A stretch of DNA of 64,000 bases from Stella humosa (lineage in GTDB: Bacteria; Pseudomonadota; Alphaproteobacteria; ATCC43930; Allostellaceae), in NCBI RefSeq assembly GCF_006738645.1, contig NZ_AP019700.1, positions 3,050,001 through 3,114,000 of the forward strand. The letters run 5' to 3'. Positions 48,254-51,200 of the stretch are shown in pieces. A model generated the notes under the pieces. It was not told the DNA's origin. It did not search any database and saw nothing but the letters and a program-made list of their open reading frames with translations. Positions within the stretch are counted from its first letter, which is position 1, and the number at the start of each line of letters is the position of its first letter. Position numbers and translations under genes: made by a program.

Positions 48254-51200
48254 CTAGAAGAACAGGCCGCCCAGGACTTTCGAGATCGGGTCCGTCACCA
48301 CGACCTGGATGGTGAGATCGACCTCCAGGATCGGCGCGTCGTGGTCGTCGTCATCCTGGCTGCCGCCACCGATGCTGCCCAGGATGTCCGACACGATGGG
48401 CAGGTCCAGATCGTCATCGTCATCGTCCGAAGACCCACCGCCCAGGATATCGCCGACGATCGGGAACTCGTCGAGATCGTCGAGGATGTTGCCGGCATCC
48501 TGGTCGTCATCGTCATCGTCGATCACGTCGCCCAGGGTGCCGCTGCCGCCGCCGCCGAGAAGGTCACCGACCAGGTCGTCGACGATGGGGAGCTGCTCGA
48601 CCACGTCGCCGACCGGATCGCTGCCGAGCAGGTCGTCAACCACGCCGCCGGACCCGGTTACACCGAGGCCATCGGCATCGTCATCATCATCATCGCCGCC
48701 GCCGATGCCGCCCAGCAGGTCGTCGACGACCGGCAGGTTGTCGAGGACATCGCCCAGGGCACCGTCGTCGCCACCCCCGAGCAGGTCGCCGACCAGGCTG
48801 TCGACGATCGGGAGCTGCTCGACCAGATCACCGACCGGGTCGCTGCCCAGAAGGTCGTCGACCACACCGCCGACCTCCGTCACGCCGAGGCCCGTGCCGT
48901 TGCCGCCGCCGATGCCGCCCAGCAGGTCGTCGATGACCGGCAGGTTGTCGAGGACATCGCCCAGGGCACCATCGTCGCCACCGCCGAGCAGGTCGCCGAC
49001 CAGGCTGTCGACGATCGGGAGCTGCTCGACCAGATCACCGACCGGGTCGCTGCCCAGAAGATCGTCGACCACACCGCCGACCTCCGTCACGCCGAGGCCC
49101 GTGCCGTTGCCGCCGCCGATGCCACCCAGCAGGTCGTCGATGACCGGCAGGTTGTCGAGGACGTCGCCCAAGGCACCGTCGTCGCCACCGCCGAGCAGGT
49201 CGCCGACCAGGCTGTCGACGATCGGGAGCTGCTCGACCAGATCACCGACCGGGTCGCTGCCGATCAGGTCATCGACCACGCCGCCGACTTCCGTCACGCC
49301 GAGGCCCGTGCCGTTGCCGCCGCCGATGCCACCCAGCAGGTCGTCGATGACCGGCAGGTTGTCGAGGACGTCGCCCAGGGCACCGTCGTCGCCACCGCCG
49401 AGCAGGTCGCCGACCAGGCTGTCGACGATCGGGAGCTGCTCGACCAGATCACCGACCGGGTCGCTGCCCAGAAGATCGTCGACCACACCGCCGACCTCCG
49501 TCACGCCGAGGCCCGTGCCGTTGCCGCCGCCGATGCCGCCCAGCAGGTCGTCGATGACCGGCAGGTTGTCGAGGACATCGCCCAGGGCACCGTCGTCGCC
49601 ACCGCCGAGCAGGTCGCCGACCAGGCTGTCGACGATCGGGAGCTGCTCGACCAGATCACCGACCGGGTCGCTGCCGATCAGGTCGTCGACCACGCCGCCG
49701 ACTTCCGTCACACCGAGGCGCGTGCCGTTGCCGCCGCCGATGCCGCCCAACAGGTCGTCGATGACCGGCAGGTTGTCGAGGACATCGCCCAGGGCACCGT
49801 CGTCGCCACCGCCGAGCAGGTCGCCGACCAGGCTGTCGACGATCGGGAGCTGCTCGACCAGGTCGCCGACCGGGTCGCTGCCCAGAAGATCGTCGACCAC
49901 GCCGCCGATCTCCGTCACGCCGAGGCCGGTTCCGTTGCCGCCACCGATCCCACCCAGCAGGTCGTCGACGACCGGCAGGTTGTCAAAGGTGTCGCCCAAC
50001 GTGCCTTCGTCGCCGCTGCCGAGAAGGGTATCGAGCAGGTCGCTGACGAGTGGCAAGTCTTCGACCAGCGGGCCGACCGGATCGCTGCCGATCAAGTCGT
50101 CCAAGACACCGCCCTGGTCGGTAACCCCAAGGCCCAGGTCGACGATTCCGTTGGGACCGATCAGGCTGTCGACCACACCGCCGACGGTGCCGCCGTTGCC
50201 GCCGCCGAGCAACTCGCCAACGATCGGGATGTCATCGACGATCGGCCCGAGGATGTCGTTGTCCAGGAGGTCGTCGACCAGGCCGCCCGGGCCAGTGACG
50301 CCCAGGCCGTTGCCATCACCATCGCCATCACCATCGCCATCGCCGTCGCCATCGCCGTCGCCATCGCCGTCGCCATCGCCGTCGCCGTCGCCGTCGCCGT
50401 CGCCGTCGCCATCGCCGTCGCCATCGCCATCGCCGTCACCATCGCCGTCACCATCGCCGTCACCATCGCCGTCGCCGTCGCCATCGCCGTCGCCATCACC
50501 ATCGCCATCGCCGTCGCCGTCGCCGTCGCCGTCGCCATCGCCGTCGCCGTCGCCATCGCCGTCGCCATCGCCATCGCCGTCGCCATCGCCATCGCCATCG
50601 CCATCGCCGTCGCCATCGCCATCACCGTCGCCATCGCCGTCGCCGTCGCCATCGCCATCACCGTCACCGTCGCCATCGCCGTCGCCGTCGCCGTCGCCGT
50701 CGCCGTCGCCATCGCCATCGCCGTCGCCGTCGCCATCGCCGTCGCCGTCGCCGTCACCATCGCCGTCGCCATCGCCGTCGCCGTCACCATCGCCATCGCC
50801 ATCGCCGTCGCCGTCGCCGTCACCATCGCCGTCACCATCGCCGTCGCCGTCGCCGTCACCATCGCCGTCGCCGTCACCATCGCCGTCGCCGTCACCATCG
50901 CCGTCGCCGTCACCATCGCCATCGCCGTCGCCGTCGCCGCCGGGGATCGGCAGGCCATCCTGGCTGCCGTCGCTGACGTCGTCGAAATCGGTCTGCAGGT
51001 TGGCGAGGCCGCGCAGGATGATCACCCGGCCATCGGCCAGGGTGAGGACCACGTCGTTGCCGACGATCTGCTTGCGGGCGAACGCATCGCGCAGCATGTC
51101 ATCCGACACGTTGCCGTCCGCACCTTCGATGCGGAGCTGGTCGATGCCGTTCTTGAAGTCTTCGATGATGGTGACCGACTTCGGATCGCCGAAGGAGATC

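Follow-up and report, generated by a model that had tools for sequence, protein, structure and literature searches.

A long Asp-Gly tract in an RTX protein of Stella, conserved, probably selected and proposed as an acidic spacer

Stella humosa is a star-shaped soil bacterium. A 64,000-nucleotide stretch of its genome (hereafter the window) holds on the minus strand an open reading frame, 48254-51478, in which one peptide segment consists of nothing other than alternating aspartate and glycine. Such a segment raises the question of whether the peptide itself is maintained and for what use, or whether it is a by-product of slippage in GC-rich DNA. A first-pass annotation of the window had described 624 bp encoding exactly 104 uninterrupted Asp-Gly pairs in mixed synonymous codons. 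This was confirmed, as the longest pure run of the frame spans 104 units and 624 bases, exactly 50312-50935 (minus strand; residues 182-389 of the listed frame by translation), with 57 GAC, 47 GAT, 87 GGC and 17 GGT codons and neither GGA nor GGG. TRF placed a single array over it (50306-50939). A (DG)12 pattern gave 93 matches in the S. humosa genome, equal to one 104-unit tract (104-12+1), and the reversed control pattern gave none in the same genome. The tract exceeds what is expected by chance.

Repeats are prone to errors, and a tract of this kind could in principle be an artefact of assembly or base calling. The genome is a single contig of 5,832,650 bases. The S. humosa ATCC 43930 assembly relied on Nanopore reads (mean 3,340 bp) with Illumina polishing, and all three closed Stella genomes were built from both kinds of reads (PMC6687932). 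In these three strains the frame is intact through each tract, and the two sister genomes of the same study likewise hold pure tracts, so an artefact is extremely improbable. The edges of the tract are also shared: in the three closed genomes GG stands before it and LG(V/I)TGPGG after it, and in S. humosa only, one Asn-Gly unit (AAC GGC) lies between the tract and LGVTG. Since DG runs directly into LGITG in both closed sisters, this edge unit may be a 105th pair whose Asp was changed to Asn.

The gene that carries the tract most probably occupies 48254-51427 on the minus strand (open reading frame list, translation and conserved start), which gives a protein of about 1057 residues and 100.9 kDa. 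The mechanical frame runs on to 51478; an ATG at 51427 has AGGAG just upstream, and AGGAG precedes the same ATG start in all four orthologues, this gene included. From the N-terminus onwards, the protein comprises a head with an RTX nonapeptide beta-roll and a C-terminal cap (50936-51427; PF00353, AlphaFold and Foldseek), the (DG)104 tract, eight repeats of 58-74 residues, six of them of 69 (48668-50305; TRF and translation), and a last diverged repeat with poly-Asp segments and a C-terminus ending in LGGLFF (48254-48667; translation). TRF described the repeat array as 6.2 copies of a 207-bp period with 95% matches, the later copies being near-identical, and AlphaFold predicted no fold for two modelled repeats (mean pLDDT 43.8). 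The composition is extreme, with 283 Asp and Glu against 13 Lys and Arg and no Cys. Pfam scanning of the complete protein yielded nothing at E 0.01 and the head was matched only when scanned alone, which is probably a composition effect. In each of the three orthologues whose end is complete, the C-terminus has GGL and then FF, FW or LSW; it is a possible type I secretion signal.

Scanned alone, the head matched PF00353 in three stretches with 67.4 bits (cut-off 23, E 9.8e-19). Its AlphaFold model (mean pLDDT 75.3, pTM 0.73) has strands every nine residues, with pLDDT 83-90 in the first six blocks and a poor stretch at 80-95; by prediction, the head is a parallel beta-roll. In a Foldseek search the RTX lipase PML and RTX domains led the list, with query TM-scores of no more than 0.33-0.53 among the top ten. 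The best solved relatives by sequence were the RTX domains of adenylate cyclase toxin, followed by RTX proteases and lipases, and the match to PML spans residues 20-147, cap included. The head resembles the lipase PML of Pseudomonas sp. MIS38 in combining an RTX beta-roll with a following cap, but in the Stella protein RTX forms the N-terminal part, and the scans recognised no enzyme domain. The proposal of an RTX head, a DG spacer and a repeat region made in the first-pass annotation is supported by the Pfam match and model of the head and by the repeat analysis. At E 1e-12 a profile of the head matched 61 of 385 alphaproteobacterial genomes (at most nine candidates scored per genome), which shows such RTX heads to be common.

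A search of 61 genomes with one repeat unit as query matched four, S. humosa included, all within the genus, for which a later paper reportedly proposes the name Allostella. The three congeners are Stella sp. ATCC 35155 (5,339,096 bases), S. vacuolata ATCC 43931 (5,834,761 bases) and a fragmented genome of 570 contigs in which the DG gene runs off a contig end. Compared with S. humosa, they show head identities of 70, 70 and 60%. The tract counts 104 pairs in S. humosa and 89 and 80 pure pairs in the closed sisters. In the fragmented congener it is interrupted by Asn, Ser and extra Gly. The longest pure run there is 14 units, so perfect purity is not required throughout the genus. Loss of the DG register in sister genomes had been named as evidence that would speak against a maintained peptide; the comparison was made, and the three orthologues keep the DG layout. 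The order of RTX head, DG tract and repeats is conserved in the four congeners, S. humosa included. The gene neighbourhood is also shared, with LysR and an M20 peptidase around the DG gene in 4/4 genomes and LacI in 3/4, the S. humosa window being counted. In the fragmented congener, each end of the gene lies on its own contig, one with LysR and the other with M20; M20 stands directly before the head there, so LacI is absent from the locus.

Below the level of the peptide, the DNA of the tracts differs from species to species. Beside GGC, the pure tract of S. humosa uses 17 GGT and that of ATCC 35155 uses 22 GGT and 16 GGA, whereas S. vacuolata has GGC only; these species-specific Gly codons indicate that the tract DNA was re-made in each lineage. 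GGG is absent from all three pure tracts, and the interrupted tract of the fragmented congener has 13. Meanwhile, apart from the edge Asn, no amino-acid change was found inside the 273 units of the three pure tracts. The S. humosa tract was noticed for its purity, while those of ATCC 35155 and S. vacuolata were found by repeat homology and therefore provide the fairer test of purity. In every pure tract GAT accounts for 45% of the Asp codons; in the remainder of the gene its share is 26, 18 and 32% (P 0.001, 2e-5 and 0.056).

These observations bear on a neutral or near-neutral origin, in which a GC-rich hexamer expanded in frame by slippage and the tract has no function of its own. Such an expansion is suggested by the tract length and codon make-up, which differ in every species, by the interrupted tract of the fragmented congener and the possible Asn at the edge of the S. 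humosa tract, and by the codon order of ATCC 35155, which is significantly repetitive (0 of 2000 shuffles were as compressible). By contrast, the codon orders of S. humosa and S. vacuolata are no more compressible than their shuffles (P 0.47 and 0.58), and against a neutral origin stand the 104, 89 and 80 units without amino-acid change although the second Asp codon reaches 45% in all three. At lags 6 and 10 the codon order of S. humosa has an excess (P about 0.005, uncorrected for 30 lags). The idea that codons are mixed to avoid long identical runs was dropped, as the longest runs (5, 4 and 5) are no different from those in shuffles.

How often codons can become mixed while the peptide stays unchanged was addressed by a neutral simulation of an 80-unit array under point mutation and block duplication at six duplication rates, with a single start state, transition bias and duplication model. 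Runs were accepted if 35-65% of the Asp codons were GAT and if the complexity of the codon order was at least that of S. vacuolata. No amino-acid change was seen in 1 of 6150 accepted runs, the six rates pooled, and in 8 of 12690 under a laxer complexity limit, although the pooled figures are dominated by low duplication rates and all eight came from rates of at least 10 duplications per mutation. When this rate was 30, 1 of 148 runs was unchanged (4 of 509 with the laxer limit), and at 100 none of 19, too few to tell (3 of 126 with the laxer limit). The selection argument therefore weakens at very frequent duplication. Since the DNA differs between species while DG stays, and since mixing without change is rare in the neutral runs, a constraint on the DG peptide is likely, and a purely neutral expansion is judged unlikely. 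The first-pass annotation had taken codon heterogeneity as a sign of purifying selection and not just of recent slippage. The first part gains from the orthologues and the simulation, even if the mixed codons of one genome cannot by themselves exclude slippage. The second needs qualification, as the DNA turns over, one of the four orthologues is interrupted and the edge Asn may be a change. Both selection and slippage probably shaped the tract. Three closed genomes of one genus keep a regular dipeptide polymer constant as a peptide although the DNA beneath it changes, and the series of 104, 89, 80 and interrupted units is a natural one for testing what acidic dipeptide tracts do.

A pure DG tract of this length had been thought unusual, and this has to be toned down. 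A scan for pure (DG)30 in a contig collection with one genome for each of 84,980 species found at least 117 stretches holding at least 127 tracts of (DG)30 or more; as purity was required, the scan is silent on how often such tracts are interrupted. Among the 127 tracts listed the longest has 88 units and is not cut at the locus edge, and none reached 104, although 21 touch the edge of their locus and may be longer. Three or more hexamer types are used by 122 of the 127. By a hand count of titles, the 80 stretches listed among the at least 117 come from 27 genomes, two of them named isolates; 56 of these 80 belong to four MAGs, namely three under the title Polyangia with 34 and one with no other title than bacterium with 22. 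A few of the frames are doubtful as genes, for instance the 88-codon frame in L099 and a frame in L093. Long Asp-Gly tracts thus recur in bacterial genomes of several phyla, and no description of them was found in the titles and abstract beginnings of the literature searched. One paper on Bordetella toxins contains the words 'Asp-Gly repeats'.

Judged by eye, many of the 87 tracts in the 80 listed loci come after a lipoprotein-like N-terminal part or a stretch rich in Ser/Thr. The occurrence of DG tracts in many proteins of unrelated appearance speaks for a neutral expansion, and it also fits a general linker. In alphaproteobacteria, (DG)12 or more was present in 11 of 385 genomes and 7 of 276 genera, S. 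humosa and ATCC 35155 included, and the reversed control gave none. In each of the nine other genomes one locus was inspected: three encode short exported-looking proteins, one is a fragment at a contig edge, one encodes a protein whose second half looks protease-like by eye, three encode Asp/Ser/Glu-rich proteins and one a lipoprotein-like protein. The locus L142 and its relatives L069, L100, L141 and L144 encode small exported-looking alphaproteobacterial proteins made of hardly anything besides a GIQ(L/H)LG...QEA N-terminal segment and a DG tract of up to (DG)69.

The closest parallels are two groups of acidic adhesins. BapA of Paracoccus denitrificans has 2,211 residues with 891 Asp-Ala repeats and is a predicted TISS substrate; deletion of bapA or of the TISS genes leaves biofilm severely defective, and Ca2+ stimulates biofilm formation, according to excerpts of PMC5588039. 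In a quorum-sensing paper on the same species, BapA is described as dominating surface anchoring, and its repeats do not figure in the passages concerned. BapA and the Stella protein are both alphaproteobacterial and very acidic, with a long Asp-X dipeptide tract between diverged ends and a calcium context, and the type I export predicted for BapA may apply to the Stella protein as well. In Stella the pair is Asp-Gly, repeated 104 times, instead of Asp-Ala, the protein has an RTX head and mostly 69-residue repeats, and no transporter was found beside the gene, whereas bapA adjoins its transporter genes. The BapA prefix model (NF033677) reached 12.8 bits on the Stella protein over 17 residues (cut-off 35), and hhalign aligned the head cap with the prefix over 29 columns at a probability of 22.6%, which is only a hint of homology. 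The Asp-Ala pattern was found in none of the 385 alphaproteobacterial genomes.

The Ser-Asp tracts of staphylococcal Sdr/Clf proteins offer the second parallel. In Fbl of S. lugdunensis, whose repeat region counts 9-52 repeats, variation among the repeats is mainly synonymous according to PMC6533592, which also describes the R-domain of Clf/Fbl and the repeat region of ClfA as a flexible stalk. The Stella tract shares with them an acidic short unit, mostly synonymous DNA variation and variable length. It differs in its unit (Ser-Asp or DSDSDA in Sdr/Clf), and Sdr/Clf are wall-anchored proteins of Gram-positive bacteria. MSCRAMMs of the Sdr/Clf type carry a C-terminal LPXTG sorting motif, and an LP.TG pattern is absent from all four orthologues (one of them, in the fragmented genome, incomplete). 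The best score with the NCBIfam models of Sdr/Clf was 78.1 bits against a cut-off of 1700, the best stretch, 252-387, lying inside the low-complexity tract. The features tested put the Stella protein in neither the BapA nor the Sdr/Clf family.

A similar architecture was found in Pseudogemmobacter hezensis, with a BapA-prefix-like head (41.0 bits, cut-off 35), (DG)69 and LLGG-rich repeats, and in a Paracoccaceae MAG, with a head below the same cut-off (30.6 bits), (DG)50 and LLGG-rich repeats. Like the Stella protein, they join a head, a long DG tract and LLGG-rich repeats, but the head resembles the BapA prefix and not RTX. A common origin of the Stella and P. hezensis repeats is not supported, as the C-terminal parts do not align (BLASTP E 76), and the parallel looks like convergence. 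Among seven open reading frames near these two genes, no match to a type I transporter family was obtained; they matched histidine kinase, Tad/Flp-type ATPase, CpaB, CpaE-like and TPR families, and two were unmatched.

RTX proteins are type I secretion substrates, and PrtD-type transporters are present in the genomes of the genus. The PrtD model (TIGR01842) scored over its curated cut-off at two loci in each of the four congeners; in S. humosa these are C1:881061 and C1:3203893, the latter and nearer one being about 102 kb from the DG gene. The genome has 98 ABC matches to this model overall, many of them weak, for instance the one in the window at about 9806-10447 (105.5 bits, cut-off 510), and matches below the cut-off occur in all 14 control genomes. 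The BapA arrangement of a gene beside type I transporter genes is absent among the Pfam-scanned neighbours, and no PrtD match over the cut-off lies nearby. The Pfam scan took in the 14 open reading frames of the window between 40631 and 59841 besides the DG gene and families other than HlyD and TolC; it matched eight (histidine kinase, response regulator, LysR, LacI, M20, DAO oxidoreductase, DUF1028 and gamma-glutamyltranspeptidase), none of them a transporter, and left six unmatched, some of which are probably wrong frames.

From all this we infer export, surface location, a spacer function, calcium effects and adhesion. A type I secretion system of the PrtD type would export the protein with its C-terminus leading; outside, in the presence of calcium, the N-terminal head would fold into a calcium beta-roll. 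The tract, in which every second residue bears a carboxylate and there are no further side chains, would stay unfolded and be extended by charge repulsion; its calcium binding would be at most weak and diffuse. It may separate the head from the repeat region in the manner of the Ser-Asp tracts of Sdr/Clf, and the Asp-rich, aliphatic LGVT...DLLGG repeats could give cohesion or attachment. By analogy, the best reading gives the DG spacer the role that the Asp-Ala tract has in BapA or the Ser-Asp tract in Sdr/Clf. A selected, polyanionic spacer of variable length in a genus-conserved, exported RTX protein is thus held with moderate confidence. The tract is real, conserved and probably selected, and as a probable spacer it resembles known acidic adhesin spacers rather than a new kind of system.

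Other roles for the same polyanion have been weighed. The carboxylate on alternate residues, within an RTX protein, would also suit a calcium sink or a mineral-nucleating polyanion for which spacing is secondary, and the authors of the BapA study speculate in the same direction about their Asp-Ala protein (excerpts of PMC5588039). The 87 listed tracts, with flanks judged by eye, place DG in many different proteins, which fits a general linker, and the sink is regarded as quite unlikely. Alternatively, the tract might act while the protein is secreted by the type I route, as an element through which calcium drives a pull or a pause: it would exit before the head because of its position between the head and the C-terminus, RTX proteins are type I substrates, and PrtD-type transporters are present. 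The RTX head alone could nevertheless provide a folding-driven pull, and this role is very unlikely. Beyond the spacer reading, a bolder proposal may be put forward, to which little credence is given. In it, the selected tract, about 80-104 pairs long, of a Stella-specific polyanionic surface protein would build an extended brush or matrix that responds to calcium and is linked to the unusual surface or shape of the cells. Taken with the Asp-Ala and Ser-Asp proteins, Asp-X dipeptide tracts would then have arisen convergently in different bacteria as a class of surface spacers tuned by calcium. Passages of a paper on Methylomirabilis, checked for a Stella surface layer, mention Stella's shape only.

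Three further features of the window were observed. Antisense to the DG gene, the plus strand has open frames at 48309-51290 and 48341-51610 (993 and 1089 residues), most likely a by-product of the GC-rich repeats. The LysR and DG genes converge, and a GC-rich inverted repeat with TTTT at its end, seen by eye between them at 48198-48240, is likely a terminator common to both. Finally, a second RTX protein of 308 residues is encoded at 31392-32318 on the plus strand, with a PF00353 match of 110.8 bits in six stretches.
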